A DNA stretch of 64,000 nt from Chelativorans salis (GTDB taxonomy: Bacteria; Pseudomonadota; Alphaproteobacteria; Rhizobiales; Rhizobiaceae): the NCBI RefSeq assembly GCF_025336525.1, contig NZ_JAOCZP010000002.1:62001-126000 (forward strand). Reading direction: 5' to 3'. The stretch's first letter is position 1. Each line of letters opens with the position of its first letter. A program made the position numbers and the translations under genes. Below the pieces are notes generated by a model that searched no databases, had not been told where the DNA came from, and saw only the letters and a program-made list of their open reading frames with translations. Of this stretch, positions 7,520-29,733 are shown piece by piece.

Positions 7520-7533
7520 CCCGTCCCACTGGC

Positions 7534-7573
7534 GTCCCGCTCCCGGCCACCGCCCGGCGGCCGGGAGCGGGAC
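7534..7573 (+). terminator. 15-bp GC-rich hairpin after the binding-protein gene
   Basis: Bases 7534-7548 (GTCCCGCTCCCGGCC) pair perfectly with 7559-7573 around a 10-base loop. No T-run follows. It lies 14 bases after the binding-protein stop and before the permease. It is more likely a partial terminator or a 3' mRNA stabiliser that raises the binding protein over the membrane subunits than an operon end. Confidence 0.7.
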
Positions 7574-7623
7574 ATCGCCTTGCAGCGGGTGGCGGAACCC
7601 GCGGAATTCCTCGGTTGTCGAAC

Positions 7624-8652: not shown

Positions 8653-8655
8653 GTG

Positions 8656-11447: not shown

Positions 11448-11814
11448 GGCGTTCAGGGCCTGTTGATACGACGGGATGAGGTGAGCGAGGGTGAGATGTA
11501 GGAACCATGAACATGAGATCGACCGACAGCCGATCTTCGCCGCCTCGGTACAGAGGCTGCCGCCGGCGGCCCGGCGATCTGGATCAGGGCGGTCTTGCTA
11601 CTCATGCGTTCAGTTTGAGGCTTTCCATGCGCCCATAGGCGGCCCGCGAGCCCTTGCGAATCGCTGATAATATACCGCTCAGCGTTTGTCCCGTTTGGGA
11701 CATGCGTCGCCCGCCGAGACATGAGAAGGCCAGATTGAATTGCCCGAAACCTGCTCTATCTCGCCCCACGAGATGACGTTCCCGGAGGCGGCTTGTTCCA
11801 CAGAGGAGGCTTTC
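11448..11814. other. Gap without a recognisable gene
   Basis: About 370 bases between the ABC importer and the sugar dehydrogenase. Short open frames exist on both strands, but none has a plausible ribosome site, domain or codon pattern. It contains a GCTGATAATATACCGC stretch near 11662 that could hold a promoter -10 element for the dehydrogenase. I see no insertion-sequence ends that I can pair. Confidence 0.35.
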
Positions 11815-13059
11815 ATGACACGCTTTGTGTCTCTGTTCGCGATAACAGCGGTCCTATGCGGTCCTGCCCTTGCCCAGACAAGCGGTGAGGGAACTGCCAG
11901 GGGTGAGACGGCTGAGACTTCTCTACCCAAGGCGCCTGACCAGGAGCCGGTGTTCGAAAACCAGACGCGAACGCCACTTCCTGCCGAGAAGACCGCCGTC
12001 GAAACCGAAACGATTGCTGAAGATCTGTCGAATCTGTGGTCGATGGAGTTCCTGTCCGATGGGGCTATGCTCGTGACCGCCAAGGAAGGCGACATGATGA
12101 TCGTTTCCTCCGAGGGCGAGGTGGGGGCGCCGATCGAGGGCGTTCCCGAGGTGATGTCCCAGGGCCAGGGCGGGCTTCTGGACGTCGCGCTCGCTCCCGA
12201 TTTCGACGAAACCGGTATGATCTATTTCTCCTTCTCCGAGCCACGCGAGGACGGCGGCAACGGGACGAGCGTCGCCCGCGCCCGTTTGGAAACGGACGGG
12301 TCAGGCACCGGAACGCTGCAGGATTTGGAAATCATCTTTCGGCAGACCCCGGCCTATGACGGGGACATGCATTTTGGCTCGCGCCTCGTTTTCGGGCCGG
12401 ATGACCATCTCTTTGTCACGGTCGGCGAGCGCTCCGATACACCCATCCGGGACCAGGCCCAGGATCTGACATCCGGGCTCGGCAAGATCTTCCGGATCAA
12501 TCCGGACGGATCTGCGCCCGAAGGCAACCCGTTCGCGCGGCACGCCGCGATCCAGCCTGAAATCTGGTCCTACGGCCACCGCAATATCCAGGCGGCCACA
12601 TTGGATCCGGAAGGTCGCCTCTGGACGGTCGAGCACGGGCCGATGGGCGGCGACGAACTCAACCGGCCGGAAGCGGGCCTGAACTACGGCTGGCCGGCCA
12701 TCACATACGGCCTTGATTATGGCGGCGCGCCCATCGGCCTCGGCCTCACCGCGATGGAAGGCATGGAGCAGCCGGTCTATTACTGGGATCCGGTCATCGC
12801 CCCGTCCGGGATGGCCTTCTACCAAGGCGAAGAATTTCCCGCCTGGGACGGCGCCGTCCTCATTGGCGGCCTGGTCAGCGAAAGCCTTGTCGTCCTTCAT
12901 TTGGAGGAGGGGCGGGTGACGAGCGAGGAGCGTATCCCGCTCGGAGCGCGCGTCCAGGACGTCAAGGTCGGGCCGGATGGTGCGGTCTACGCTATCACCG
13001 AAGCCGACAACAACAGCTCCAGCGCTATCATGCGCGTCACCAGCCAGGCAGGCGGCTGA
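11815..13059 (+). CDS. Periplasmic PQQ-dependent aldose sugar dehydrogenase (YliI-like)
   Basis: A 414-residue secreted beta-propeller of the glucose/sorbosone dehydrogenase family, which oxidises aldoses in the periplasm with PQQ. A signal peptide (TRFVSLFAITAVLCGPALAQ) is followed by a low-complexity acidic linker of about 40 residues. Family motifs are GQGGLLDVALAPDF, EIWSYGHRNIQAA and EHGPMGGDELNRPEAGLNYG, which supply the catalytic base and the cofactor and calcium contacts in homologues. The ATG at 11815 is preceded by AGAGGAGG. It stands alone between the ABC operon and a convergent IclR gene. PQQ dependence is inferred from the family; no PQQ biosynthesis gene is in the window. Confidence 0.88.
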   Translation: MTRFVSLFAITAVLCGPALAQTSGEGTARGETAETSLPKAPDQEPVFENQTRTPLPAEKTAVETETIAEDLSNLWSMEFLSDGAMLVTAKEGDMMIVSSEGEVGAPIEGVPEVMSQGQGGLLDVALAPDFDETGMIYFSFSEPREDGGNGTSVARARLETDGSGTGTLQDLEIIFRQTPAYDGDMHFGSRLVFGPDDHLFVTVGERSDTPIRDQAQDLTSGLGKIFRINPDGSAPEGNPFARHAAIQPEIWSYGHRNIQAATLDPEGRLWTVEHGPMGGDELNRPEAGLNYGWPAITYGLDYGGAPIGLGLTAMEGMEQPVYYWDPVIAPSGMAFYQGEEFPAWDGAVLIGGLVSESLVVLHLEEGRVTSEERIPLGARVQDVKVGPDGAVYAITEADNNSSSAIMRVTSQAGG

Positions 13060-13152: not shown

Positions 13153-13962
13153 CTATCGTGCACCGCCAGTGATCATAGGGGCGAATGAAAGCTCCTTGCA
13201 AAAAGCAGTGAGCCGCTCGACAGCTTCTGATCTTGGCTGCACCACCGCCGGATCTGTTCCAATCAGGGTTATTACGGCCTGTGCTTCCCTCTGCCAGTCG
13301 AGGATCGGAGCGGCGATGGCGACAAGGCCCGGAATGAACTTGCCTTCCACCGATGCATAGCCCTGGGTGCGGATGGTCTGGACCATCTTGTCGATGTCCT
13401 CCTCCGTCGGTAGCAGATCGGGGGCAACCGCCGGGTTCTGGCGCGCATGGCGCAATTCGGCCTCCCGAAACGCTTGAAGGGGTGCAGGCGGAGCCCAGGC
13501 GAGGAAGGCGCGGCCAGTGGCGGAGTTGAGCAGCGGTAATGTAGTGCCGAGACCCATCGAGGTGACCATGGGGGAAGCCGCCCGCTCCCAACGGATGACG
13601 GTCGCACCTTGAGTTCCCCAGACGGAGAGGAGGGCAGTCAGGCCGGATTCGTCGCGTAAATCAGGCAGGGCGTCGGACGCGCGGTTGACGAAATCGTGGC
13701 GGGCAAGTGCTGAGAGGCCGAGTGTCACCGCCCCCGGACCCAAGTCATATTTGCCAGAGCGGCCGGCCTGTTCCACAAGGCCCGCATGATGGAACGACGC
13801 CAGGTAGCGGTGCACCTTACTTGGCGGCATTCCGCACTCGCGCGCCAACTCCGACAGGGACGCCGGAGCGCGGCGCTCGATCATGGCGTTCAGCAGTCGC
13901 AGTGCCGCGTCGAGCGATTGAATGCCGCCCGTATGCTCGTTGCCATTATCATCTTTGGCCAT
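13153..13962 (-). CDS. IclR-family regulator of the aromatic-acid locus
   Basis: A 269-residue IclR protein. A winged helix-turn-helix occupies about residues 12-75 (GGIQSLDAALRLLNAMIERR, LSELARECGMPPSKVHRYLA). The effector domain follows, with the family segment LLNSATGRAFLAWAPP and AIAAPILDWQ. Its start overlaps the end of the thioesterase gene by 14 bases, so it is in the same leftward unit. IclR proteins often control aromatic degradation; here the likely target is the divergent promoter near 14.4 kb. The effector (salicylate, gentisate or a CoA ester) is not deducible. Confidence 0.9.
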   Translation of the reverse strand: MAKDDNGNEHTGGIQSLDAALRLLNAMIERRAPASLSELARECGMPPSKVHRYLASFHHAGLVEQAGRSGKYDLGPGAVTLGLSALARHDFVNRASDALPDLRDESGLTALLSVWGTQGATVIRWERAASPMVTSMGLGTTLPLLNSATGRAFLAWAPPAPLQAFREAELRHARQNPAVAPDLLPTEEDIDKMVQTIRTQGYASVEGKFIPGLVAIAAPILDWQREAQAVITLIGTDPAVVQPRSEAVERLTAFCKELSFAPMITGGAR

Positions 13963-14365
13963 TGGCTTCCACTATCCCGCGCAGCGCCTCGATTTCCGCG
14001 GCGACCATACCCGTATCGCCAAGCTTGAACAGCCCTCGCACTTCTGTCCCCACAACAGCGAGCTGGCCGCCGACGCGGCCCTCATAGGCGAGTTGCAAGG
14101 TTTTGCGGCCCCATTCTTCGACGGAAAGAGTGAGGGACAGCAGATCGCCATTCCGCATCGGCCGGCGGAACTGAGCACTCGCTTCCATCAGCCCCAGACC
14201 GAGAGCCTCAAGCCTTTGGCAGAGGGCCTCATGGCCCCCGAATTGCCAGAGCCACTCATGGAAAGTGCGGTCGAACCAGGCGTAGACGTTCGGATAGAAG
14301 ACGATGCCCGCAGGGTCGCAATCGCCAAAACTGACTGAATAATCAAGGCTATGCGTGATCTCCAT
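13949..14365 (-). CDS. Hotdog acyl-CoA thioesterase, probable gentisyl-CoA thioesterase
   Basis: A 138-residue single hotdog-fold thioesterase of the 4-hydroxybenzoyl-CoA thioesterase/YbgC group. It shows the catalytic-aspartate motif SFGDCDPAGIVFYPNVYAWF near residue 18. The start at 14365 has GGAGCGG ahead of it; an upstream ATG at 14392 is less likely. In CoA-dependent gentisate formation the hydroxylase produces gentisyl-CoA, which must be hydrolysed before ring cleavage; this gene, divergent from the fused ligase-hydroxylase and 88 bases away, fits that step. The substrate assignment is from context. Confidence 0.82.
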   Translation of the reverse strand: MEITHSLDYSVSFGDCDPAGIVFYPNVYAWFDRTFHEWLWQFGGHEALCQRLEALGLGLMEASAQFRRPMRNGDLLSLTLSVEEWGRKTLQLAYEGRVGGQLAVVGTEVRGLFKLGDTGMVAAEIEALRGIVEANGQR

Positions 14366-14386
14366 TTTTCCGCTCCATGAAATATA

Positions 14387-14440
14387 TTGCATAATGTGAA
14401 AACCACTCTATCCTTTAGGTCAAGAAGTGTCGATCGACCT
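14387..14440 (+). promoter_or_regulatory. Candidate promoter and dyad for the aromatic catabolic operon
   Basis: TTGCAT at 14387-14392 and TATCCT at 14409-14414 are spaced by 16 bases and could be a weak sigma70-like promoter, as expected for an activated gene. Downstream, AGGTC (14417-14421) faces GACCT (14436-14440), a possible IclR site. The 88-base divergent gap must hold the control of both directions. The evidence is position plus modest matches only. Confidence 0.35.
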
Positions 14441-14452
14441 TTGGGAGGAGGC

Positions 14453-17200
14453 ATGGCGAACCTGTCCAGCATAGAGATTTTGGGAGGCGGTCCGGCGGGC
14501 CTTTATGCGGCGATCCTGCTGCGGCGGACGATGCCGGAAGTGCGGGTGCGGGTGACGGAACAGAATCCGCGAGGCGCTACCTTCGGCTTTGGCGTCGTCT
14601 TCTCGGATCAGGCACTGGACTTCCTCAGGGCCGACGATCCTGAGACGCATGATCTCGTAACGCCCTGTATGGAGCGCTGGCGGAACATGACGCTCAACCT
14701 GCCCGCCGGGCAGGTTATCCTCGACGGTGTCGGATTTTCCGCTATCGGCCGGCTGGAGCTGATCGAAATTCTGCGCAAGCGTGCTGAGGCGCTTGGCGTG
14801 GAGATGCGCTTCTCCTGCCAGGTGACGGCGCTTGATGAGCTGCAGGCCGATCTGATCGTCGGGGCGGACGGGCTGAATTCCTTGGTGCGCCGTTCGCTCG
14901 AGGCGGAATTCGCGCCGATGCTCGACCATTTCAGCAATCACTTCGCCTGGTTCGGTACGGAGCGACCCTTCGAGACGCTGACCCAGAGCTTCGTGACTAC
15001 CGACAAGGGCGCGCTCAACGCGCATCACTATCGCTTCGCCCCGAACCGCAGCACCTTCATCGTCGAATGTGATGCGGCGACCTTTGGCGCGTATGGCTTC
15101 GCGGACATGGATGAGGCGCAGAGCGCGCGGCTGTGCGAAACAATTTTTTCCGATGTCCTGGAAGGTGCGCCGCTGATCACCAACAAGTCGATGTGGCGGC
15201 AGTTTCCACGGCTGTGGTGCCGGAACTGGGCTGCCGGGCGGTACGTGCTTCTGGGTGATGCAGCCCACACCGCGCATTTCTCCATCGGTTCGGGCACGCG
15301 GCTGGCGATGGAGGATGCTATTGCGCTCGTCCGCTCGCTTGCTGCGCATAACGATCTGGACGAGGCGCTGGCCGCCTACCAGGCCGAGCGCCAGCCTATC
15401 GGGAAGAAGATCGTCGACGCCGCCAACACATCCGCCATCTGGTACGAGAGCTTTGCCGAGAAGATGGCGCTGGCTCCGGTCGATTTCGCCTTCGACTACA
15501 TCACCCGCTCCGGCCGCGTGGACATGGATCGTCTGCGCAAGATGGCGCCCGGCTTCATGGCCCGCTACGACGCCGAGAAGGCGGCAGAGGGGCGCGGCGC
15601 GCTGGCCGATCCGGTTGCGGACAACGTGCCCGGCGCGGTCGAGATCGGCTTCGACAAGGCGGCGCACCCGAACTGCTCCGCCATCCTGTGGGACAATCTC
15701 GAGCGCAACCCGGACAAGCCGGCGCTCATAGGGCCAGCCGGCACGATGACCTATGCGGAACTTGTGGCCGAGGCGGCGCGCTGGGGCAATGCCTTCATCG
15801 CTGCCGGGCTGAAGCGCGGCGAGCGTATCCCATTCTTCCTCGATGATACGCCGGTCTATCCGGCCACCTTCTTCGGAGCTGTGCGGGCGGGCTTCGTGCC
15901 CGTGCTGTTGAACACGCAAACGACGCCGGACACCCTGAACTTCTTCCTTAGGGATACTGGCGCACGGATTGCCCTCTGCGAGGCTTTGCTGGTGGATCGG
16001 TTCGGAGCGGAGACGCTGGAAGGCACCGCGCTCGAGCGGGTTGTAATCGCGAACGGGGAGGCCGAAGGGGCAGGTCGCATCGCAGCTGCGGATTTCCTTG
16101 CCGGGCGGCCACACGAACTTGCCTGCGCAGACACCGGGCCGGACGACATGGCTTTCTGGATGTATTCCTCGGGCTCGACTGGACGGCCCAAAGGCATCGT
16201 CCATCTGCACCACGACATAGCCTATACGCAAGCGTCCTTCGGCGAGCATGTGCTGAAGCTGCGGCCCGACGACATCTGCTTTTCGGTGCCGAAGATCTTT
16301 TTCGCCTACGGCTTCGGAAATGCGATCACCTTTCCCTTCTCAATCGGCGCGACCACGCTTTTGATGCCGGGACAGCCGCGCCCCAACGCGGTACTGGATA
16401 CGATCGAGCGTTTTCGCCCCACCGTACTTTTCGGCCTGCCGACGCTCTATACCGCGCTGGCCCGAGCCGAGGGTGCTGAGAAGCGGGACCTGAGTTCGCT
16501 GCGCCAGTCCATGTCGGCGGCGGAAATCTTGTCGCAGGATATCTATGATGCGTGGAAGGCGCTGACCGGGCATGGCCCTACCGAGGGGCTGGGCTCGACG
16601 GAGATGCTGCACATCTATCTGTCGAACAGCCTTGACGACCATAGGATCGGCTCGGCCGGCGCGCGCGTGCCCGGCTATGAGGTGCGCCTAGAGACGCCCG
16701 AGGGCAGGCCGGCGGCGCCCGGCGAGGAGGGCGTGATGTTCGTGCGCGGCCATTCCTCTGCGCCCTGCTACTGGAACCGGCCGGACAAGACCGGCGATAC
16801 GATGCGTGGAGACTGGCTCTACACCGGCGACCGCTTCATCGAGAAGGACGGGTACTTTTACTTCCAAGGCCGCGCCGACGAGCTGATCAAAGTGTCGGGC
16901 CAGTGGGTCTGGCCGCTCGAGGTGGAGCGCTGCCTGAACGAGCATCCGGACGTGCACGAATGCGTCGTCCTGGCTCACGAGATGGCCGACCGCCGGATGA
17001 CGCTCCGGGCCGTCGTGCGGCTGCGTGAGGGCAAGGCAGGCAGTGAGGAGCGGAGCGACGCACTGCGCGCCTACGTCAAGTCACGCCTGCAGCCCTACAA
17101 ATATCCGCGCATCGTCGAGTATGTCGCCGATCTGCCCAAGACCGGCACCGGCAAGATCGACCGGCAGGCATTGCTGCGGGCGAAAGAGAAAAGCGTGTGA
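14453..17200 (+). CDS. Fused FAD-dependent aryl-CoA hydroxylase / aryl-CoA ligase
   Basis: A 915-residue two-domain enzyme. Residues 1 to about 390 are a class A FAD monooxygenase like the salicylyl-CoA 5-hydroxylase / 2-aminobenzoyl-CoA monooxygenase N-terminal domain: ILGGGPAGLYAAIL dinucleotide fold, DLIVGADGLNSLVRRS, and GDAAHTAHFSIGSGTRLAME. After a short linker, residues about 402-915 are a benzoate-CoA-ligase-type adenylating enzyme with YSSGSTGRPKG, YTGDRFIEKDGYFYFQGR and the catalytic lysine in PKTGTGKIDR. The ATG at 14453 follows GGGAGGAGG. Expected chemistry: ATP- and CoA-dependent activation of salicylate or 3-hydroxybenzoate, then NAD(P)H- and O2-dependent ring hydroxylation to gentisyl-CoA. 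There is one uninterrupted frame with no stop between the domains. Confidence 0.88.
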   Translation: MANLSSIEILGGGPAGLYAAILLRRTMPEVRVRVTEQNPRGATFGFGVVFSDQALDFLRADDPETHDLVTPCMERWRNMTLNLPAGQVILDGVGFSAIGRLELIEILRKRAEALGVEMRFSCQVTALDELQADLIVGADGLNSLVRRSLEAEFAPMLDHFSNHFAWFGTERPFETLTQSFVTTDKGALNAHHYRFAPNRSTFIVECDAATFGAYGFADMDEAQSARLCETIFSDVLEGAPLITNKSMWRQFPRLWCRNWAAGRYVLLGDAAHTAHFSIGSGTRLAMEDAIALVRSLAAHNDLDEALAAYQAERQPIGKKIVDAANTSAIWYESFAEKMALAPVDFAFDYITRSGRVDMDRLRKMAPGFMARYDAEKAAEGRGALADPVADNVPGAVEIGFDKAAHPNCSAILWDNLERNPDKPALIGPAGTMTYAELVAEAARWGNAFIAAGLKRGERIPFFLDDTPVYPATFFGAVRAGFVPVLLNTQTTPDTLNFFLRDTGARIALCEALLVDRFGAETLEGTALERVVIANGEAEGAGRIAAADFLAGRPHELACADTGPDDMAFWMYSSGSTGRPKGIVHLHHDIAYTQASFGEHVLKLRPDDICFSVPKIFFAYGFGNAITFPFSIGATTLLMPGQPRPNAVLDTIERFRPTVLFGLPTLYTALARAEGAEKRDLSSLRQSMSAAEILSQDIYDAWKALTGHGPTEGLGSTEMLHIYLSNSLDDHRIGSAGARVPGYEVRLETPEGRPAAPGEEGVMFVRGHSSAPCYWNRPDKTGDTMRGDWLYTGDRFIEKDGYFYFQGRADELIKVSGQWVWPLEVERCLNEHPDVHECVVLAHEMADRRMTLRAVVRLREGKAGSEERSDALRAYVKSRLQPYKYPRIVEYVADLPKTGTGKIDRQALLRAKEKSV

Positions 17201-17302
17201 CGCGGAACGGCCTTAAGGCTCGGGGCGCCTGACACTTGAACTGGAATAGGTGAGCCGGGATTGCGCGGTGCGTCCGGCAGGTTTCGTCAAGGGAGGAATA
17301 AA

Positions 17303-18268
17303 ATGAAAATCACCAGCTATTTGTTGGCGGCAGGCTTGGCCCTGGGGCTCGCGGCGCCTGCAGCCGGGCAGGTCAGCTCCATCTCCACACCGCCGCAGGG
17401 ATCGGTGTGGAACACCATGGCGTCGGTCATGGCCGGTCAGGCACGCGAAAGCAGCAATATGCGCATGGTGGTGCAGCCCTACGGCGGCAACGCCCAGATG
17501 ATGCAGGCGTTGAATGAAGGCATTGCGGAGTTCTCGCTGAACGATGTGAACGACGTCATTTCCGCGTTTGAGGGTAGCGGCGAATATAGTGCCCCGATGC
17601 CCAATCTTCGCGCAGTTGCGCGGATCAACCCGTTCCCGGTCGGGCTCTATGTGAAGGAGAATTCCGGGATGACATCCGTCTCCGATCTCGCGGGCAAGAG
17701 CGTGCCTGCCGGTTGGGACGCCTTCACCATTGCGCGGTCGCACATCACCGCCATCCTCGCGGCCGGTGGGCTGACCTGGGATGATGTCAAGCAGGTACCC
17801 GTGCCTGAGCTGATCCGCGGCTCGGACGACATGGCCTCCGGCCGCGTCGACAGCGCCTTCTTCGCCGTCGGTGGGCCCAAGGTGGCCGAGGTCGACGCCT
17901 CGGTCGGCGGCGTCCGCTTCCTCACTGTGGAAGCCAATGACGAGACGCTTGCCAAGATCCAAGCAGTGCGGCCTGCCTTCTACTTTTCCGAGGTCGCTCC
18001 GGCGCCGGTGCGAGTTGGTGTCAAGGAGCCAATGATGTTCGTCACCTGGGACAACACCCTCGTCGCCGGGGCGCATGTGCCGGACGAGCAGGTCGAGGCC
18101 TTTCTGTCCGTCATCTTCGACAACGCCGAAGCCATCGGCAACGCCTACCCGCCGCTCAAGGCGCTCAATCTCGAGACTGCCTACAAGAGCTATCCGGGAC
18201 TGGAGTATCACCCCGGCGCCGTCGCCTTCTTCGAAGAGCGCGGCGTCAAGCAATCGGTCTCTGAGTAG
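17303..18268 (+). CDS. TAXI-family TRAP solute-binding protein
   Basis: A 321-residue periplasmic binding protein. The start at 17303 has GGGAGGAATAAA upstream and a Sec signal (KITSYLLAAGLALGLAAPAAG). The mature protein begins with the TAXI pattern (SISTPPQGSVWNTMASVMAG), with MRMVVQPYGGNAQMMQALNE and, further on, LAGKSVPAGWDAFTIARSHI. It delivers a carboxylate ligand to the adjacent fused TRAP permease using an ion gradient. Its place between the ligase-hydroxylase and the ring-cleavage genes suggests an aromatic acid such as salicylate or gentisate. A hairpin follows its stop. Confidence 0.88.
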   Translation: MKITSYLLAAGLALGLAAPAAGQVSSISTPPQGSVWNTMASVMAGQARESSNMRMVVQPYGGNAQMMQALNEGIAEFSLNDVNDVISAFEGSGEYSAPMPNLRAVARINPFPVGLYVKENSGMTSVSDLAGKSVPAGWDAFTIARSHITAILAAGGLTWDDVKQVPVPELIRGSDDMASGRVDSAFFAVGGPKVAEVDASVGGVRFLTVEANDETLAKIQAVRPAFYFSEVAPAPVRVGVKEPMMFVTWDNTLVAGAHVPDEQVEAFLSVIFDNAEAIGNAYPPLKALNLETAYKSYPGLEYHPGAVAFFEERGVKQSVSE

Positions 18269-18283
18269 CCTGAGGCCTCATGC

Positions 18284-18304
18284 GGGGCGGTGCGGAGCCG
18301 CCCC
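18284..18304 (+). terminator. GC hairpin after the TRAP binding-protein gene
   Basis: GGGGCGG at 18284-18290 pairs with CCGCCCC at 18298-18304 around a 7-base loop; the palindrome TGAGGCCTCA lies just upstream at 18271-18280. No T-run follows. The position between the binding protein and its permease again suggests dosage control within the operon. Confidence 0.6.
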
Positions 18305-18331
18305 TGCCAACCCAAACGGGAAGGGCACCGA

Positions 18332-20314
18332 GTGACCGACAAGATCATGCAAAACGCTGCCGGCTCCGCAATTGTTGAAGATGTGGGCGGTCCGGCATGG
18401 GTCCGGCACCTGATCCATGCGCTTGCCGGCACACTCACGCTGGTAGCCGTGGCACAGGCCGCCGATCTGCCGTCCCGGCTCGGCTACTCCTATTACACAG
18501 AGCAGTTCCTGGCGGTGATCCTGGGATTGAGCCTTGGGCTCGTGTTCCTGACCCGCCGGGCAAGGAGCACCGACAAGGCCGTTGCGCCTCCAATCGCAGA
18601 CCTGGTTCTCGCCGCGCTCGGCCTCGGCCTCTCTTTCTATGTTGCCTGGGCGTATCCAAGCCTGCTGGCCAATGCCATGCTGTTGCCGTGGAATGCGCTC
18701 GTCGCCGGCGGTCTTCTGTTCCTCCTGGTGCTCGAGGGGCTGCGCCGGACGGTTGGAATGACGCTCGTTATCGTCGTGCTGGCGATCGTGCTCTACGGGC
18801 TCGTCGGCCATCTCGTGCCGGGGGTACTGCAAACCCGCGAGGTCCAGCTTCCGCGCCTGGCCGTCTATCTCGCTTTCGATCCGAACGGCCTTTTCGGGGT
18901 AACGCTCAACGTCGCGGCCACAGTTGTCGTCGCCTTTGTTCTGTTCGGGCAACTCCTGCTGCGCTCAGGCGGTGCCGATTTCTTCAACGACATCGCGCTC
19001 GCCACCATGGGCCACAGGCGCGGTGGCTCGGCGAAGATCTCTATCGTCGCCTCGGCTCTTTTCGGCTCGATATCCGGCGTGGTGGTGTCGAATATCGTTG
19101 CGACCGGCGTGGTCACGATCCGGCTGATGATCAATTCCGGTTTCCGCCGCGCCACGGCGGCGGCAATCGAAGCGGTCGCCTCGACCGGCGGGCAGATCGC
19201 GCCGCCGGTCATGGGCGCTGTGGCCTTCCTGATGGCTGATATCCTGCAGAAGCCATACTCGGAGATTGTCGTGGCGGCGATCGTGCCGGCGCTGCTCTAT
19301 TATGTCGCGCTTTATGTGCAGGCTGACCTGCAGGCGGCAAAGCATGGCATAAAGCCGGTGGAGGGGGAGGATATCCCTCCGGTGGGCCGCGTCGTGACCC
19401 GCGGGTGGGTTTTCGCCTTGCCCTTCGCGGCGATCGTCGCGGCGCTGTTCTGGTTCAACCAGCGGGCGGAGACCGCGGCGCTTTGGGGCGGCGGTGCGGC
19501 CCTCCTGATCGGGCTTTTCATGGGCTACGGTAAGAGCCGCATGTCTCTGCGCGATCTCTGGAACGCAGCCGTTGAGAGCGGCCGGTCGATTATCGACATC
19601 ATCATGATCGCTGCCGCAGCCGGTTTCATCATCGGCGTGCTGAATGTGACGGGCCTTGGGTTCGCCGTGACATTCGCCCTGGTCGATCTGGGGCAGGGCA
19701 GTCTGCTGCTTCTCCTGCTGATCTCGGCGGCGGTTTGCCTCGTGCTCGGCATGGGCATGCCGACGGTGGGCGTCTACCTGCTGCTTGCAGTGCTCGTCGC
19801 GCCCTCGCTGATCGAAACCGGCGTGGAGCCGATCGCCGCGCACCTCTTCATCTTCTATCTCGGAATGATGTCCATGGTGACGCCGCCCATCGGCATCGGC
19901 GCCTTCTTCGCGGCGTCCATCGCCAAGGCGCCGCCGATGGCTACCGCGTTCGAGGCGATGCGCTTCGGGTGGACTGCCTATATCATTCCCTTCCTCTTCG
20001 TCTTCTCGCCCTCTCTTCTTTTGATCGGCGAGCCGGTCGACATCGTCCTGGCAGTTGTGACGGCGATCCTGGGGGTCTACGCGATCTCCAGCGCCTTTAT
20101 CGGCTGGCTTCATGGCCCGGCCGGTCCGGTGCGGCGCGTGCTGACGGGGCTCGCGGGTGCGGCGCTGCTCCTGCCGCCCGGAATCATCGGGGCCGCAACC
20201 CTCTGGTTCAATGCGGCGGGCATGGCAGCTCTGATCGTGCTCTGGCTGCTGGGGCGTGAGCGGACCGAAGCAGAATCACTCTCTGTGGGGGCGGAGAACA
20301 CAACCCGGATATGA
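18332..20314 (+). CDS. TRAP transporter fused 4TM/12TM permease
   Basis: A 660-residue inner-membrane TRAP subunit in which the small (DctQ-like) and large (DctM-like) parts are fused, the usual form with TAXI binding proteins. An amphipathic N-terminus precedes the first helices; the large domain carries GSISGVVVSNIVATGVVTIR and ASTGGQIAPPVMGAVAFLMA, and in the second half GMGMPTVGVYLLLAVLVAPS and MMSMVTPPIGIGAFFAASIA. The GTG at 18332 with GGGAAGGG at 18318-18325 is preferred to the ATG at 18347 and the GTG at 18290. It works with the preceding binding protein to import the locus substrate. Confidence 0.88.
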   Translation: MTDKIMQNAAGSAIVEDVGGPAWVRHLIHALAGTLTLVAVAQAADLPSRLGYSYYTEQFLAVILGLSLGLVFLTRRARSTDKAVAPPIADLVLAALGLGLSFYVAWAYPSLLANAMLLPWNALVAGGLLFLLVLEGLRRTVGMTLVIVVLAIVLYGLVGHLVPGVLQTREVQLPRLAVYLAFDPNGLFGVTLNVAATVVVAFVLFGQLLLRSGGADFFNDIALATMGHRRGGSAKISIVASALFGSISGVVVSNIVATGVVTIRLMINSGFRRATAAAIEAVASTGGQIAPPVMGAVAFLMADILQKPYSEIVVAAIVPALLYYVALYVQADLQAAKHGIKPVEGEDIPPVGRVVTRGWVFALPFAAIVAALFWFNQRAETAALWGGGAALLIGLFMGYGKSRMSLRDLWNAAVESGRSIIDIIMIAAAAGFIIGVLNVTGLGFAVTFALVDLGQGSLLLLLLISAAVCLVLGMGMPTVGVYLLLAVLVAPSLIETGVEPIAAHLFIFYLGMMSMVTPPIGIGAFFAASIAKAPPMATAFEAMRFGWTAYIIPFLFVFSPSLLLIGEPVDIVLAVVTAILGVYAISSAFIGWLHGPAGPVRRVLTGLAGAALLLPPGIIGAATLWFNAAGMAALIVLWLLGRERTEAESLSVGAENTTRI

Positions 20315-20380
20315 AGCATCTTGTGCACGGCGCATTCGATATGGGCCATGCAAGCTGAACCAAGGAACAAGGAAACAATA

Positions 20381-21079
20381 ATGTCCTACGTCTTTTCTCC
20401 CGTACCGACCGCGAGTGTGGCTGTCGCCGGAAGCCCGGACAGATTTCCGGTGCGGCGCATCTTCTGCGTCGGGAGGAACTATGCGGCCCATGCTCGCGAG
20501 ATGGGCAAGGATCCGGACCGCGAAGCGCCGTTCTTCTTCAGCAAACCGGCGGATGCCGTCGTGGATTCTGGCGAAACCGTCGCCTACCCACCGCAGACGG
20601 AAAATTTTCACTACGAGGCGGAACTGATCGTCGCGATCGGCACGGGCGGGCGCAATATCTCCGAAGCGGCGGCTTTGAGCCACGTCTGGGGTTACGCTAT
20701 CGGCAACGATCTCACCCGGCGGGATCTGCAGCTTCAGGCGCGGGACAAGGGGCGCCCTTGGGATTTCGGCAAGGCGTTCGACCGCTCCGCTGTGATCGGC
20801 CCGGTTCATCCCGTGGCGGCGGTCGGGCACCCGGACAAGGGCTCGATCCGGCTCACCGTGAATGGGGAGACGAAGCAGAACGGGGATCTCGCCGAGCTTA
20901 TCTGGTCGGTGCCCGAGATCATATCGATCCTTTCGCATTCCATCACGCTCGCGCCGGGCGACCTGATCATGACCGGCACGCCGGCAGGCGTCGGACCGCT
21001 GCTGCCGGGCGATACTTGCGTCGTCAGCATCGAAGGGTTGGGCGAAATCAGCACTCGGATCGGCCCCAGGGAAGAATAA
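20381..21079 (+). CDS. nagK: Fumarylpyruvate hydrolase (FAH family)
   Basis: A 232-residue fumarylacetoacetate-hydrolase-fold enzyme. It shows IFCVGRNYAAHAREMG, the metal-binding acidic cluster in NFHYEAELIVAIG, GYAIGNDLTRRDLQ, and GDLIMTGTPAGVGPL, all standard for fumarylpyruvate hydrolases (NagK type). It cleaves fumarylpyruvate to fumarate and pyruvate, the last step of the glutathione-dependent gentisate pathway. The start at 20381 has AAGGAA upstream. It is followed two bases later by the GST-type isomerase. The symbol is by analogy with the Ralstonia nag genes. Confidence 0.87.
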   Translation: MSYVFSPVPTASVAVAGSPDRFPVRRIFCVGRNYAAHAREMGKDPDREAPFFFSKPADAVVDSGETVAYPPQTENFHYEAELIVAIGTGGRNISEAAALSHVWGYAIGNDLTRRDLQLQARDKGRPWDFGKAFDRSAVIGPVHPVAAVGHPDKGSIRLTVNGETKQNGDLAELIWSVPEIISILSHSITLAPGDLIMTGTPAGVGPLLPGDTCVVSIEGLGEISTRIGPREE

Positions 21080-21081
21080 TA

Positions 21082-21729
21082 ATGAGCCTGACGCTGCATA
21101 ATTTCTTCCGGTCCTCTACCTCTACGCGGCTGCGCGCGGCGCTGAACCTCAAGGGCCTGGACTACACATACATGCCCTATGTCCTGCGGCGGGGGGACAC
21201 GCGCAAGCCGGAGTACCTGGCGATGAATCCGGCCGGCCTCGTGCCCGCGCTCGAGCGCGCCGACGGTACCGTCATGACGCAGTCGCTGGCGATTATCGAG
21301 TGGCTGGAGGAAACCCATCCCGAGCCTGCGCTGTTGCCGTCCGATCCCGATGGTCGGGCGCGGGTGAGGGCGCTCGCGATGATGATCGCCTGCGAAGTCC
21401 ATCCGCTCAACAATCTCCGGGTGCTCGGCTATCTCGCCAATCGTTTTGGCGCAGACGAGGCAGCGCAGAAGGAATGGTTCACCCACTGGGTGCAGACCAC
21501 CTTCGACGCCTTGGAGACGACGCTGTCGTTGGACGTGCGGACCGGAACATTCTGCCACGGCGACCAGTCCGGGCTCGCGGACCTTTGCCTTTACGCGCAG
21601 GTCTGGAACAACCGCCGGTTCGATATCGACACCTCGGCATGGCCGACGATCGGCCGCATTTTCGAGCGGCTGGACGCAATTCCCGCTTTCAAGAATGCGG
21701 CGCCGCCTAACCAGCCGGACGCGGCCTGA
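21082..21729 (+). CDS. nagL: Maleylpyruvate isomerase, glutathione S-transferase zeta type
   Basis: A 215-residue zeta-class GST. The N-terminal thioredoxin-like domain carries the signature serine cluster FFRSSTSTRLRAALNLKG and the glutathione-site segment NPAGLVPAL with QSLAIIEWLEE; the all-helical C-terminal domain includes CEVHPLNNLRVLGYL and SGLADLCLYAQVWN. It converts maleylpyruvate to fumarylpyruvate with glutathione as cofactor. It starts two bases after the hydrolase stop, so the two consecutive enzymes are made together. Maleylacetoacetate isomerase is the close alternative, but the gentisate context favours maleylpyruvate. Confidence 0.87.
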   Translation: MSLTLHNFFRSSTSTRLRAALNLKGLDYTYMPYVLRRGDTRKPEYLAMNPAGLVPALERADGTVMTQSLAIIEWLEETHPEPALLPSDPDGRARVRALAMMIACEVHPLNNLRVLGYLANRFGADEAAQKEWFTHWVQTTFDALETTLSLDVRTGTFCHGDQSGLADLCLYAQVWNNRRFDIDTSAWPTIGRIFERLDAIPAFKNAAPPNQPDAA

Positions 21730-21759
21730 GGATTCACCTCGTCACCAGGAGGACATACT

Positions 21760-22863
21760 ATGTTCGACGAGAAAGAAGACGCTCCCGCCCATGCCATGCA
21801 GCCGGAAGACACCCCGGAGCTGCGCGCGCTCTACAAGGGCTTCGAGGAACAGCATCTCCTGCCGCTGTGGACTCAACTGGGTGACCTGATGCCCGTTCAT
21901 CCGAAGCCGCGGGCGGTGCCGTATGTCTGGAAATGGGCTGAATTGCTACCGCTTGCGCAACGCTCCGGCGAACTCGTCCCGGTCGGGCGGGGCGGCGAGC
22001 GGCGAGCCCTCGGGCTTGCCAATCCAGGGCTTGGCGGGCATGCCTATGTCAGTCCTACGCTGTGGGCGGCGATCCAGTATCTGGGCCCCAAGGAGACTGC
22101 GCCCGAACATCGCCATTCGCAGAACGCCTTCCGCTTTGTGGTCGAGGGGGAGGGGGTCTGGACCGTGGTCAACGGCGATCCGGTGCGTATGAGCCGTGGC
22201 GATCTGCTGCTGACTCCCGGCTGGCATTTCCACGGCCATCACAACGACACCGACAAGCCCATGGCCTGGATTGACGGGCTCGACATCCCCTTCGCACAGC
22301 AGAACGATGTCGGTTTCTTCGAGTTCGGATCGGACCGCGTGACCGACTATGCGACGCCTCGCTTTTCACGCGGCGAGCGGCTCTGGTGCCATCCGGGGCT
22401 GCGCCCACTGTCGGGGCTTCGGGATACGGTCAGTTCCCCCATCGGCGCCTATCGGTGGGAGCATACAGACCGGGCGCTGACCGAACAGCTCCTGCTGGAA
22501 GAAGAGGGGCAGCCCGCGACGGTCGAGCAGGGCCACGCCGCCATTCGATACGTCAATCCCACAACGGGCGGCGACGTGATGCCGACGATCCGCTGCGAGT
22601 TCCATCGCCTGCGCGCGGGTACCGAAACGCCGACGCGGCGGGAGGTGGGCTCGACTGTCTTCCAGGTTTTCGAGGGTCGTGGCGGAGTTGTTATTGACGG
22701 CGTGACACACAAGCTCGACATCGGCGATATGTTCGTGATCCCGTCCTGGGTGCCGTGGTCCCTGCAGGCGGAGACGCAGTTCGATCTCTTCCGCTTCTCC
22801 GATGCACCGATCATAGAACGCCTGAACTTCGCCCGCACCCATGTCGACAGAGGGGAGCCGTGA
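21760..22863 (+). CDS. Gentisate 1,2-dioxygenase
   Basis: A 367-residue bicupin iron dioxygenase that opens the gentisate ring between C1 and C2 to give maleylpyruvate. The N-terminal cupin carries the metal-ligand histidines in APEHRHSQNAFRFVVEG and a late histidine set in PGWHFHGHHND; the second, degenerate cupin ends GDMFVIPSWVPWSLQ. The LWTQLGDLMPVHPKPRAVPY stretch and the helical N-terminus are typical of gentisate dioxygenases. AGGAGGA precedes the ATG. Its stop overlaps the next gene's GTG start (GTGA), coupling ring cleavage to the second isomerase. Confidence 0.92.
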   Translation: MFDEKEDAPAHAMQPEDTPELRALYKGFEEQHLLPLWTQLGDLMPVHPKPRAVPYVWKWAELLPLAQRSGELVPVGRGGERRALGLANPGLGGHAYVSPTLWAAIQYLGPKETAPEHRHSQNAFRFVVEGEGVWTVVNGDPVRMSRGDLLLTPGWHFHGHHNDTDKPMAWIDGLDIPFAQQNDVGFFEFGSDRVTDYATPRFSRGERLWCHPGLRPLSGLRDTVSSPIGAYRWEHTDRALTEQLLLEEEGQPATVEQGHAAIRYVNPTTGGDVMPTIRCEFHRLRAGTETPTRREVGSTVFQVFEGRGGVVIDGVTHKLDIGDMFVIPSWVPWSLQAETQFDLFRFSDAPIIERLNFARTHVDRGEP

Positions 22864-23651
22864 GCACGGCGCAAGAGGCGGCACGCGCCGCCTTGCGCCA
22901 GCGCCAGGGCCCGGGCGCTCGTTATGACGCGCCCGCTGCGCCCGCTCGTTCTCTCGACTGGGCGCGGCGTGGCACGGCCTATTTCGCGCGCCTGCTCAAT
23001 GACCTGTCGGATGCCGACCTCGATGCGCCCTCGGCGCTGCCCGGATTGTCGCGGCGTCACATCATCGCTCACATCGGCTATCAAGCGCGCACCTTGAGCG
23101 AGATCGTCGCCTGGGCGCGGACGGGGCAGGCCGGACCATTTCCACGGGTGGTGCAGGTGGCGGAAAGCGATATCGCGCTCGGCGTCACACTGCCCACACG
23201 CGCCCTGCGCTATCTGTTCGATCATTCGGAAGTGCACCTCAATGTCGAATGGCGCGATCTGACCGATGCCGACTGGGACGCTTGCGTTGTGGAGGACGCA
23301 GAGGGCCGGCGGATCGCGCTGCGCGAAACGCCGGAAACCCGTGCCCGTGCGCTCTGGCTCCATGCGGTGGACCTGAATGCGACCGGGCGCTTTACCGATA
23401 TGCCACCGGCATTCATTGATGCGCTGATCCGGCATTATGCAACGGCATATTCCGGCAAGGTCGATCTCGTTCTATCTCCGTCAGACCGGCAGCAGGAGGT
23501 TGTGATCGGCAATGCGACCGACATCACGGTGACAGGACGAGCGGCGGATATCGGCCGGTGGCTCTCAGGCCGGGGTGCCCGCGGCTTGCAGGTCCGTGGA
23601 GGACCGCTACCCGAAGGAATATCACCGGTCCCCGGCCTCATCGGCCTTTGA
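22860..23651 (+). CDS. MDMPI-type maleylpyruvate isomerase (mycothiol-enzyme family)
   Basis: A 263-residue protein of the DinB-fold, mycothiol-dependent maleylpyruvate isomerase family, unrelated to the GST isomerase two genes upstream. It has the four-helix N-terminal domain (LDWARRGTAYFARLLNDLSD, SRRHIIAHIGYQARTL) and the RALWLHAVDLN motif before a small C-terminal domain. In the Corynebacterium enzyme zinc is held by a His, a Glu four residues before a second His, and that His. Here His71 and His168 are present, but the Glu position is Ala164. The GTG start at 22860 overlaps the dioxygenase stop. It may be an isomerase with altered metal or thiol use, or a repurposed homologue. Confidence 0.8.
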   Translation: MSTAQEAARAALRQRQGPGARYDAPAAPARSLDWARRGTAYFARLLNDLSDADLDAPSALPGLSRRHIIAHIGYQARTLSEIVAWARTGQAGPFPRVVQVAESDIALGVTLPTRALRYLFDHSEVHLNVEWRDLTDADWDACVVEDAEGRRIALRETPETRARALWLHAVDLNATGRFTDMPPAFIDALIRHYATAYSGKVDLVLSPSDRQQEVVIGNATDITVTGRAADIGRWLSGRGARGLQVRGGPLPEGISPVPGLIGL

Positions 23652-23853: not shown

Positions 23854-23960
23854 GCAAGAAATTTCATTCCATGAAAAAGTATGCAGGTCCGTTGACATGC
23901 TGCCAGATCTGCCATACGAACCTGGTACGCAATGAAATTCACTAACTGAAATTTCTTGCA
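23854..23960 (+). promoter_or_regulatory. Promoter with flanking 14-bp inverted operators
   Basis: TTGACA at 23892-23897 and TACGAA at 23915-23920 are 17 bases apart, a good sigma70-like promoter pointing at the sugar/polyol importer. It is bracketed by TGCAAGAAATTTCA at 23854-23867 and its exact reverse complement at 23947-23960, 93 bases apart start to start. A further dyad TTTCAT-TCC-ATGAAA covers 23863-23877, and GAAATT at 23934-23939 faces AATTTC at 23950-23955. One site upstream and one just past the expected start of transcription is the classic layout for repression by looping; the SorC regulator of this operon is the natural binder. Confidence 0.6.
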
Positions 23961-24018
23961 AAGGCGATGGAGCGCTGTCAGCCTCCATCGCGAGGAACGG
24001 TTCGAAGCGGAGGAGACA

Positions 24019-25026
24019 ATGAGAAAGATTGGACTTGCCGGGGCCTTGGCCGCGGCGACAATGGCGGTCGCGCCTGCATCGGCAGGCGAGAGCAAGTTTC
24101 AGTGCGAGCCAGGCGAGACGTATATCATGAACGTGATGGTCTCGGCTCATCCCTACTGGGTTCCGGTGTATCAGGGCTTCAAGCAGGCCGCCGAGGCGAT
24201 GGGCTGCGAGACGGTCTTCTCCGGCACGCCCGACTACGACATCACCAAGCAGATCGCTTCGTTCGAGCAGGATCTGGTGAAGCAGCCGGCGGGCATCCTG
24301 CTCCATCCCATGCAGTCGGACCCGTTCATCGAGCCGATCGACCGCGCCATCGAGAGCGGCGTCGAGGTCGTCACCTTTGCGGCGGATTCGCCCAATTCCA
24401 AGCGCACGGGCTACATCACCTCGGACAACCTTGCCGAGGCCAAGTTCGCGGCTGAGGAGATCGTGAAGCAGATCGGCGACAGCGGCGAGTATGCCGTGCT
24501 GGAGAATCCCGGTCAGAGCAACCACGATCTGCGTGTCACGGCGCTGATCTCCTACATGGAGGAGAACTACCCGAATATGAAGCTGGTCGGACGGCAGGCG
24601 ACCAACCAGGACAGCAACGCAGCCTACCGCGCGACCGCTTCCATCCTCCAGGCCAACCCCAATCTGGGCGCGCTATGGATTCCGGAAGCCGGCTCGGCGG
24701 AGGGCGCTGTCGCGGCCGTGCTGGAAGCTGAGGCGGATGTGCTGATCATGCATGCGGATATCACGCCGACGACGCTCGAGCACATCAAGGCCGGCAACAT
24801 CCACATGGCGCTCAACCCCAACCAGGGCATGCAGGGCTTCATGGGTTTCGTCGCCACCTTCATGGCGGCGCATCCAGACATGTTCGATCCGTTCAACGAC
24901 TACAAGGTCTCGGGCTACAACCCGATGCAGATCCCTTTCGTCGACAACGGCTTCGCGGTCATCACAAAGGAGAACGCCGCCTCCTTCGACCTGAACACGT
25001 ACATGGAAGGGCGGGACCCGAGCTAG
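24019..25026 (+). CDS. Sugar/polyol ABC transporter substrate-binding protein
   Basis: A 335-residue periplasmic binding protein of the ribose-type (peripla_BP_4) group. A Sec signal (RKIGLAGALAAATMAVAPAS) follows an ATG with GGAGGAGACA upstream. The mature part has MNVMVSAHPYWVPVYQGFKQ, then DYDITKQIASFEQDLVKQPA, and the hinge-side HADITPTTLEHIKAGNIHMA, all typical of pentose, tetritol or sugar-alcohol binders. It is the first gene of an operon with SorC regulator, kinase and dehydrogenase, so the ligand is likely a sugar alcohol or small sugar. Two cysteines in the mature N-terminal region (KFQCEPGET and MGCET) could form a disulfide. Confidence 0.88.
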   Translation: MRKIGLAGALAAATMAVAPASAGESKFQCEPGETYIMNVMVSAHPYWVPVYQGFKQAAEAMGCETVFSGTPDYDITKQIASFEQDLVKQPAGILLHPMQSDPFIEPIDRAIESGVEVVTFAADSPNSKRTGYITSDNLAEAKFAAEEIVKQIGDSGEYAVLENPGQSNHDLRVTALISYMEENYPNMKLVGRQATNQDSNAAYRATASILQANPNLGALWIPEAGSAEGAVAAVLEAEADVLIMHADITPTTLEHIKAGNIHMALNPNQGMQGFMGFVATFMAAHPDMFDPFNDYKVSGYNPMQIPFVDNGFAVITKENAASFDLNTYMEGRDPS

Positions 25027-25035
25027 GGCCCGGGA

Positions 25036-25089
25036 GCAACGCTCTAGAAGAGTTGTTGCCCGCGCCGCGCCGAGCGGGGCGGCGCGGGC
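25036..25089 (+). terminator. Tandem hairpins between binding protein and ATPase genes
   Basis: A first stem-loop at 25036-25059 (GCAACGCTCT over AGAG-T-TGTTGC with one bulge) is followed by a perfect 11-bp stem, 25058-25068 with 25079-25089, around a 10-base loop. The two share two bases, so they may compete. There is no T-run. They lie in the 114-base gap after the binding-protein gene and would favour its transcript over the downstream genes. Confidence 0.65.
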
Positions 25090-25140
25090 AGCCCGAAGCC
25101 GGCACGTTCCATCCCGACGCCAACCAAGCGGCAGTTAGCT

Positions 25141-26661
25141 ATGGAAGATGACCTGATCCTCAGGATCGCCAATCTGAGCAAGTCGTTCGGCCCCATCCGC
25201 GCGCTTCGCGGTGTCGACTTCGAACTGCGCAAGGGCGAGATCCATGCGATCGCCGGCGAGAACGGCGCCGGTAAGTCGACGCTGATGAATGTCATCGACG
25301 GCATCCTGCAGCCCGACAGCGGCGAGATCTTCATCGACGGCCGCCCGGTCACAATCGCGTCTCCGGCCGTGGCGCAGAACCTCGGGATCGGCTTCGTCCA
25401 CCAGGAAATCGCGCTTTGTCCCGATGTCACCATCGCCGAGAACATTTTCATGGCGGCGACGAACACCAGCCGCTCTATGCTGATGGACTATGCGGGCCTG
25501 GAGCGCAAAGCCGGAGAGGTTCTCCGGCGGCTGGGCGACATCGACCCGTCCGCGCTCGTGCGCACGCTTTCGATTTCCCAGCAGCAGCTTGTCGAGATCG
25601 CCAAGGCGCTGACCCTGGATTGCCGGGTTCTCATCTTGGATGAGCCGACGGCGGCACTGACCGAAAGAGAAGCGCAGATTCTCTTCGATATCATGCACAA
25701 GCTCGCGCAGCAGGGTATATCGATCATCTATATCTCGCATCGCATGGCGGAGATCTTCGATCACTGTGATCGCGTCTCCGTCTTCCGCGACGGCCAGTAC
25801 ATCACCACCCGGAACGTCGCGGAAACGACGCCGGGCGAGATCGTCAATGCGATGGTCGGTCGGGTGATCGACAACCTCTACCCGGACAAGCAGAGCGACG
25901 AGGAGAAGTCCGAGGAAATCATACTTGACGTCCGAAGCCTCACCGAGCGTGGCCGCTTCACGGACATCTCCTTCCAGCTTCGCAAGGGAGAGATACTGGG
26001 TCTCGCTGGACTTATCGGCGCTGGGCGAAGCGAAATCGTCAAGGGTATCTGCAGGCTAGGGGGTGAGGTGACGGGCGAAGTCTCGCTCAGGGGGCGACAG
26101 CTCGAACTCACACATTACAAGGACAGTATCGCCGAGGGCATCGTCTACCTCTCCGAGGATCGGAAGGGAGACGGCCTTTTCCTCGACATGTCCATTGCGT
26201 CGAATGTCTCCGCGCTTTCGGTGCGGCAGGTCGCGTCTTTCCTGGGCATCATTGATGACCGCAAGGAGGTCGCGCTGGCGGAGCGGCTGGGCAGCAAATT
26301 GAATCTGAAGTGCGGCCATGTCGGCCAGCCCGCATCTGCGTTGTCCGGCGGCAACCAACAGAAAGTGGCGATTGCTAAGATGCTGTCGGTCAATCCCCGC
26401 GTGATTTTCCTCGACGAGCCGACGCGCGGGGTGGACGTGGGCGCGAAGGCCGAGATTCATCGCATCCTGCGCGACCTTGCGCGCAGTGGGGTTGGCATCA
26501 TCGTCATCTCGTCTGAACTGCCGGAGCTGATCGGCGTCTGCGACCGCGTCCTGGTGGTGCGCGAGGGCCGCATCAGCGGCGAGGTGGCTGGAGAGGATAT
26601 GACCGAGGAGAAGATCATGTATCTGGCCTCGGTCACGGAAGAACGGCCGCAGGCGGTATGA
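25141..26661 (+). CDS. Sugar ABC transporter tandem ATP-binding protein
   Basis: A 506-residue RbsA/MglA-type protein with two ATPase halves. First half: [51 protein letters not shown]. Second half: a degenerate P-loop [16 protein letters not shown], then [15 protein letters not shown] and [17 protein letters not shown]. The conserved GRSE in the second P-loop is normal for the family. No strong ribosome site precedes the ATG at 25141. Its final ATGA overlaps a possible permease start. It energises import of the sugar or polyol. Confidence 0.92.
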
Positions 26662-26675
26662 GTGTGGAGGAGAAA

Positions 26676-27680: not shown

Positions 27681-27710
27681 CTGCTCGACCACATCCAATC
27701 GGTGAACGCC

Positions 27711-28677: not shown

Positions 28678-28688
<11 letters not shown>
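27711..28688 (+). CDS. SorC/DeoR-type sugar-responsive regulator (EryD-like)
   Basis: A 325-residue SorC-family transcription factor. The N-terminal helix-turn-helix is in YTVLVLHFIDGMKQSDIGTA and LNLSPSKVSRLITQGRKLGM. The sugar-binding domain has the family pieces DVIAITGGKAVSAVVENLEP, VVPLTGGVQGKYYTDVNHLA and VALVGVGSILTPGSSYYD. Members such as EryD respond to phosphorylated intermediates of polyol use. The ATG at 27711 is used; a GTG at 27702 is possible. It is inside the operon it presumably controls, with the flanking inverted repeats near 23.9 kb as likely sites. Its end overlaps the next gene by 11 bases. Confidence 0.9.
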
Positions 28689-29673
<985 letters not shown>

Positions 29674-29733
29674 CTTTCCGACCCGGAACCAATTTCGCGA
29701 CACCGTCCTCCGTGGGCGGTGAACGGTGGACCT

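Follow-up and report, generated by a model that had tools for sequence, protein, structure and literature searches.

A cehGHI-like gene cluster with a fused hydroxylase-ligase in Chelativorans salis, predicted to degrade salicylate through gentisyl-CoA

In the sdg route of Streptomyces, salicylate is converted through the coenzyme A (CoA) esters salicylyl-CoA and gentisyl-CoA by the products of separate genes. The same logic is predicted for a gene cluster at positions 13153-23651 of the 64,000-nucleotide stretch of Chelativorans salis DNA analysed here (the window, on contig C12 of the 5.66 Mb genome G000). Its nine open genes form two divergent units. The minus-strand unit encodes an IclR regulator and a hotdog thioesterase; the plus-strand unit encodes, in this order, a fused hydroxylase-ligase, a TAXI solute-binding protein, a TRAP permease, an FAH-family hydrolase, a zeta-class glutathione S-transferase (GST), a bicupin dioxygenase and an MDMPI-like protein (Table 1). 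The cluster is probably of the cehGHI kind and would serve the regulated breakdown of salicylate, with a single chain as its first enzyme. A first-pass annotation had proposed a complete CoA-dependent gentisate route for this locus: the eight genes that it listed are open and family-matched, with a candidate for each step from a hydroxybenzoate to fumarate and pyruvate, and only the IclR gene was missing from its list.

Comparison with cehGHI-type clusters

A cehGHI salicylate route in Rhizobium sp. X9 is attributed to Zhou et al. (2021; doi 10.1111/mmi.14771) in a 2024 eLife paper (PMC11335346). On plasmid pAt1 of Agrobacterium tumefaciens Sta004 (L054), RefSeq labels a gentisyl-CoA thioesterase as cehI, a salicylyl-CoA hydroxylase as cehH and a salicylyl-CoA ligase as cehG. 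These names are presumably taken from the X9 route. The gene order of L054 (IclR, thioesterase, divergent hydroxylase, ligase, FAH hydrolase, GST (maiA), cupin dioxygenase, MDMPI-like gene) matches that of the window, but hydroxylase and ligase are separate in L054 and are one 915-residue protein in the window, where a TAXI-TRAP importer is also inserted. The window hydroxylase half was 70% identical to the labelled CehH (over 98% of the query), the ligase half 73% identical to CehG, and the thioesterase, which has the same position and strand beside IclR, 50% identical to CehI. Genes of the CehH, CehG and CehI kinds are present in the window, but not as separate hydroxylase and ligase genes, and the cluster was filed as a fused variant that would work like a cehGHI-type salicylate cluster.

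Judged through the RefSeq names, the nearest known system is this alphaproteobacterial route. The Streptomyces precedent given in the first-pass annotation stands for the salicylyl-CoA logic, but not as the closest relative; the two Streptomyces plasmid records among the matches listed (of five) were 34 and 40% identical. A "CoA-mediated gentisate pathway" with sdgC is named for Massilia in an excerpt of a further paper (PMC13215587).

Eighty-four related loci with the hydroxylase were compared, four of them from plasmids and the other 80, the best of 581 relatives, from named contigs. The complete gene order of the window, fusion included, was also found in L057, L058 and L061. Fusion, importer and gene order are shared with Nitratireductor sp. 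OM-1 plasmid pOM-1 (L057; hydroxylase half 71% and ligase half 75% identical) and with Nitratireductor luteus (L058; 88% and 91%). IclR genes 56-85% identical occupy the same position in L054, L055, L057 and L058, and the TAXI-type neighbours of the hydroxylase in L055, L057, L058 and L061 were 75-87% identical to the solute-binding protein of the window. Five of the 84 loci, of which three carry the fusion, have all nine other functions (ligase included; at least 40% identity) no further than 13 kb from the hydroxylase. The importer, which had been called dedicated, is present at the locus but is optional in the cluster type (8/84 loci); Salipiger abyssi has it beside the two-gene form. An excerpt on Sagittula sp. 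MA-2 shows the order TAXI-TRAP, NagK, NagL in a polycyclic aromatic hydrocarbon cluster (PMC11705938).

In loci L089-L126, mostly from Bradyrhizobium, the hydroxylase (56-61% identical) and ligase are mainly a two-gene pair, and many of these loci have a different type of gentisate dioxygenase (34-38%) and a GST on the opposite strand.

The fused protein and its history

The likely start of the fusion is the ATG at 14453, near where homologues begin. A VioD-related flavin monooxygenase takes up the first ~380 of its 915 residues, and the last ~490 belong to the benzoate-CoA-ligase family (TIGR02262 in a profile search: 479.8 bits, cut-off 375); aligned to benzoate-CoA ligases, the ligase half gave an overall match only. 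When the predicted structure was searched with Foldseek, the hydroxylase half matched VioD and the ligase half matched anthranilate- and benzoate-CoA ligases, with anthranilate-CoA ligase 4wv3 as the best match of the model. The model was of moderate quality (mean predicted local distance difference test score 79.4, predicted template modelling score 0.52) and is unreliable on how the halves face each other. Across 20 aligned fused proteins, the flavin adenine dinucleotide (FAD) motifs (GxGxxG-type, GADG, GDA) and the ligase motifs (P-loop, STE, TGD, GTGK) were all invariant.

The ligase-hydroxylase fusion reported in the first-pass annotation is real and is widespread among relatives. Within the same family, the hydroxylase (E up to 1e-90) was found in 13 of 151 genomes, seven of which (the window's own included) have one frame of more than 900 residues and six a short frame; when 18 family genomes were picked for having the dioxygenase, the fusion was present in 12 of them, the window's own among these. 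Of the 84 loci, 21 are fused, 53 have their best ligase match outside the hydroxylase frame ("split", the match being sometimes distant or on the opposite strand, as in L133 and L137) and 10 have no ligase match. These one-frame fusions in other family genomes and relative loci rule out an assembly artefact. No report of a fused salicylyl-CoA ligase-hydroxylase was found in the open-licence literature (titles and starts of abstracts; most subscription papers lie outside it).

Membership of NF006101, "bifunctional salicylyl-CoA 5-hydroxylase/oxidoreductase", was rejected: 376.7 bits were obtained against a cut-off of 1078, and only positions 3-387 of the 768 in the profile were matched. That family, which we take to be of the 2-aminobenzoyl-CoA monooxygenase/reductase type with an old-yellow-enzyme-type domain as C-terminal partner (FMO-OYE), shares a related N-terminal flavin monooxygenase with the fusion, whereas the C-terminal partner in the window is an AMP-forming ligase. 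Elsewhere in the genome (G000:C16:252722-253846) there is a 766-residue frame of FMO-OYE-like size, with a hydroxylase part 37% identical.

Quick trees were built with SH-like approximate likelihood ratio (SH-aLRT) support and no bootstrap. The sample comprised the window, 43 of the 80 named loci and 30 other loci; L087, which has no ligase match, was left out, giving 73 rows (31 fused, 42 not) for the hydroxylase. On this tree, where long branches meet among the outer rows, the fused/separate label needs two changes, and the starred branches force two. For a joined hydroxylase and ligase tree of 62 rows (27 fused, 35 not), whose five outgroup rows are not one side of any branch, five long rows (L014, L018, L020, L024 and L088, the last one fused) were removed, as were six rows that are copies or near-copies (L048, L075, L132, L165, L168, L171). 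Two changes were again needed and forced by starred branches, and the hydroxylase alone and the ligase alone, over the same rows, each needed two. A single clade of fused rows was rejected by approximately unbiased (AU) tests (p = 9e-57 joined, 1e-74 ligase, 2e-4 hydroxylase).

Ten two-gene rows, among them the ceh-labelled L054 and L055 and the family genome G576, nest within the fused clade beside the fused L065 and L170. The matched hydroxylase and ligase pieces stand 134-269 bases apart in these ten, against 56-146 bases in the remaining two-gene rows, and when the ten were compared with nine others, varied leaders were seen ahead of their ligases. One fusion followed by one later fission is the simplest account of these trees; a history with no fission would call for some seven or eight independent fusions, by our count on the joined 62-row tree. 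The account is not certain: the branch that holds all the fused rows and the nested ten has a support of 94 (joined) or 79 (ligase alone) and is starred in neither tree, and more than one fusion is possible. On this account, the fused state seems to predate the nested two-gene state. The first-pass annotation had described the locus as "compressed", which suggests a late fusion; the trees speak against this, since they place separate genes with CehH and CehG labels within the clade of fused proteins. Gene fission in a catabolic operon thereby gains a candidate example, and the single protein would offer a one-pot assay of the CoA-dependent salicylate route, with a test for hand-over of the CoA ester.

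Dioxygenase residue 106 and the starting acid

The closest solved relative of the window dioxygenase is the proven salicylate and gentisate 1,2-dioxygenase (SDO/GDO) of Pseudaminobacter, a strong match in the same bicupin family (~84% identity by way of the copy in G576). Ala85 and Trp104 are kept, but position 106 is Gly in the Pseudaminobacter enzyme and Ala in the window, as in the solved G106A variant (alignment to 2phd and 3nst). The EHRHSQNAF stretch of the His motif is present together with Ala106, as in the gentisate-only enzymes of this branch, and Gly106, taken here as the mark of direct salicylate cleavage, is absent. Structure 3nw4 is the Pseudaminobacter enzyme, and the G106A enzyme oxidises gentisate only (Ferraroni 2013, as reported in an excerpt of a 2024 paper, PMC11109138). 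Since Ala106 is the published gentisate-only state, a gentisate-forming step would be needed first.

Direct cleavage of salicylate by this dioxygenase, with the CoA enzymes serving another acid, would accord with its 83.6% identity to the G576 copy, which matches 2phd, the solved salicylate dioxygenase, at 364 of 365 residues; with Ala106 in place of Gly106, it is very improbable.

Ala106 was found in 17 of 17 dioxygenases at least 78% identical in the relative loci; the other 37 matches above 80 bits were 34-38% identical and not comparable at this position. It was also found in 17 of the 18 family genomes with the dioxygenase, the sole Gly106 being that of G576. There, the gene is surrounded by IclR, thioesterase, two-gene hydroxylase and ligase, FAH, GST and MDMPI-like genes, and the cluster DNA is 98.4% identical to that of the A. 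tumefaciens cluster over 7,775 aligned bases. Two of 365 dioxygenase residues differ between these clusters, at positions 5 and 106. With Ala106 in all 17 of the relative loci and in each of the 17 other family genomes, Gly106 is most simply the derived state. The well-studied salicylate dioxygenase appears to have branched off from the gentisate dioxygenase of this cluster type by the change of one residue. A prediction that Gly106 goes with missing CoA enzymes failed: the four of 18 genomes without hydroxylase-ligase all have Ala106, and G576 has the two-gene pair. No CoA genes beside the Pseudaminobacter dioxygenase were reported in the titles and starts of abstracts listed from the open-licence literature. 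The origin of direct salicylate ring cleavage has so far been studied in made mutants; this natural pair of clusters would make it testable in the native gene context.

The kind of cluster is already known from relatives, and what appears to be new is its probable history, with a fused state that would predate the nested two-gene one and a salicylate dioxygenase that would be an offshoot. As a tentative scenario, an old one-chain salicylate-to-gentisyl-CoA synthase would have passed salicylyl-CoA between its halves, CehH and CehG would have come from a later fission, and an Ala-to-Gly change at 106 in a two-gene cluster would have created the Pseudaminobacter SDO, making the CoA steps dispensable there.

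From the gene content, family memberships, conserved motifs, ceh-like gene order and Ala106 observed at the locus, we infer the substrate, the order of steps, uptake, regulation and any transfer of the CoA ester from one half to the other. The acid would be imported by the TAXI-TRAP system and sensed, itself or as an intermediate, by IclR. The C-terminal half of the fusion would convert salicylate, ATP and CoA to salicylyl-CoA, and the N-terminal half, using O2, FAD and NAD(P)H, would add a second hydroxyl para to the existing one to form gentisyl-CoA. Gentisate would be freed by the divergent hotdog thioesterase, opened to maleylpyruvate by a conventional gentisate 1,2-dioxygenase, isomerised to fumarylpyruvate by the GST-type enzyme and split by the FAH hydrolase into fumarate and pyruvate.

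Indirect evidence points to salicylate rather than 3-hydroxybenzoate: the RefSeq-labelled ceh homologues (50-73% identical) stand in the same order, and a salicylate dioxygenase lies inside the G576 cluster. Several observations weigh against salicylate or against the roles assigned here. The closeness to CehGHI rests on RefSeq names and not on X9 sequences; a near-identity search of a plasmid collection with the L054 cluster gave no X9 record among the 9 matches listed. The catalytic roles of all the fused proteins are predictions. The dioxygenase scored 276.8 bits against TIGR02272, under the cut-off of 442.1, although this cut-off seems to leave out the branch, because the proven Pseudaminobacter SDO/GDO is its closest solved relative. 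At 10 of the 21 fused loci (L060, L066, L067, L069, L072, L074, L078, L081, L086 and L088, some of them short contigs) there is no thioesterase of at least 40% identity within 13 kb, and this step may be served elsewhere or differ. Salicylate 1-monooxygenase was unmatched at E 1e-60 among the eight best FAD_binding_3 proteins of the genome, a check that included no family search for other salicylate routes such as the multi-component salicylate 5-hydroxylase. The dioxygenase occurs without hydroxylase-ligase in four of the 18 family genomes, and one of these four, G559, encodes a 3-hydroxybenzoate 6-monooxygenase over the cut-off (590 bits; L180:14851-16104) at a distance of ~5 kb from its dioxygenase, which is of the type seen in the window. 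The lower pathway therefore serves more than one acid and does not alone name the acid. Lastly, the best-scoring equivalog of the ligase is the 3-hydroxybenzoate-CoA ligase HbdA (368.6 bits, far under the cut-off of 1000).

This HbdA match bears on a route in which 3-hydroxybenzoate is first activated with CoA, the ester then receives a hydroxyl at C6 to become gentisyl-CoA, and this is hydrolysed. C6, too, lies para to the hydroxyl, and the genome search for 3-hydroxybenzoate 6-monooxygenase gave nothing over the cut-off (best 280 bits, cut-off 459). Such a route is nevertheless unlikely: the RefSeq-labelled CehG scores nearly as high against HbdA (364.5 bits), the relative G559 has the direct 6-monooxygenase near the same kind of dioxygenase, and the cluster type is named for salicylate, with a salicylate dioxygenase inside the G576 cluster. 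A DctM-type TRAP permease gene lies between the two G559 genes.

In Brevibacillus and in haloarchaeal clusters, 4-hydroxybenzoate is converted to gentisate by 1-hydroxylation of the CoA ester and migration of the side chain (NIH shift), with the same three-gene set of ligase, flavin hydroxylase and thioesterase. For the window this is highly improbable. The genome encodes the 4-hydroxybenzoate 3-monooxygenase PobA (666.9 bits, cut-off 538.7), and 4-hydroxybenzoate therefore has another route. Proteins from Alphaproteobacteria, some labelled cehH and others unlabelled, are the nearest relatives of the window hydroxylase, and the four haloarchaeal plasmid matches listed, none established as an NIH-shift enzyme, were 34-42% identical. 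Salicylate is thus retained as the probable starting acid.

Isomerases, gene coordinates and flanking genes

Two isomerases had been proposed for the locus. The GST-type assignment is upheld, with the maleylpyruvate isomerase structures 2v6k and 2jl4 as best relatives, but the second is doubtful. The MDMPI-like protein matches the solved Cgl3021 (2nsf), which we take to be a mycothiol-dependent maleylpyruvate isomerase with the metal ligands His52, Glu144 and His148. At these places the window protein has His, Ala and His. The full triad was found in none of 16 orthologues; the first His is kept in 5/16, and of the 15 sequences that extend to the Glu position, 2 have Glu there. Two of the 16 were partly covered, yet these already fail at the first His. 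The MDMPI-like protein is probably not an active mycothiol-type isomerase, and with its triad incomplete, the GST-type enzyme is likely the isomerase of the cluster. Since the gene is kept beside the dioxygenase all the same, its product probably has some other role.

The thioesterase matches the 4-hydroxybenzoyl-CoA thioesterases 5wh9 and 1bvq and has the stretch FGDCDPAGIV in common with 1bvq. The best structural relatives of the FAH hydrolase are 6j5y and 4maq ("putative fumarylpyruvate hydrolase").

Table 1. Coordinates of the cluster genes in the window, and of the related gene in G576
Feature	Position	Strand	Basis or remark
IclR-family regulator	13153..13962	-	IclR_C and HTH_IclR; 14-base overlap with thioesterase gene
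Hotdog acyl-CoA thioesterase, probably gentisyl-CoA thioesterase (CehI type)	13949..14392	-	4HBT; divergent from fusion gene
Fused hydroxylase-ligase, 915 residues	14453..17200 (open frame from 14387)	+	Family profiles, invariant motifs
N-terminal half: flavin monooxygenase, CehH type, presumed salicylyl-CoA 5-hydroxylase	14462..15610	+	FAD_binding_3, 76.6 bits
C-terminal half: benzoate-CoA-ligase family, CehG type, presumed salicylyl-CoA ligase	15662..17200	+	TIGR02262
TAXI-family TRAP solute-binding protein	17303..18268 (open frame from 17261)	+	TIGR02122, 146.6 bits, cut-off 84
Fused TRAP permease	18290..20314	+	TIGR02123, 544 bits, cut-off 321
Predicted fumarylpyruvate hydrolase, FAH family	20381..21079 (open frame from 20321)	+	PF01557
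Predicted glutathione-dependent maleylpyruvate isomerase (zeta GST, NagL type, maiA-type)	21082..21729	+	TIGR01262, 262.5 bits, cut-off 171
Predicted gentisate 1,2-dioxygenase, close kin of Pseudaminobacter SDO, Ala106	21760..22863	+	Alignment to 2phd and 3nst
MDMPI-like protein, incomplete metal site	22860..23651	+	TIGR03083; alignment with 2nsf
G576 salicylate-dioxygenase-like gene	L178:6437-7531		L178 = G576:C19:32000-50000

Upstream of the cluster, parts of a branched-chain-amino-acid-type ABC transporter (binding protein, permease) were found at 6029-9840; in L161, a transporter of this type comes after the ceh-type cluster. A glucose/sorbosone dehydrogenase-type protein is encoded just ahead of the IclR gene (11740-13059). 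Downstream, the region 23956-35502 has the look of a sugar/polyol unit, with a Peripla_BP_4 binding protein, a sugar-binding-domain protein, an aldo-keto reductase, a DAO-type oxidoreductase, a DeoC-type aldolase, an FGGY kinase and a GMC oxidoreductase. Flp (tight-adherence) pilus-type genes (RcpC/CpaB, secretin, T2SSE ATPase) lie at 43773-52552.

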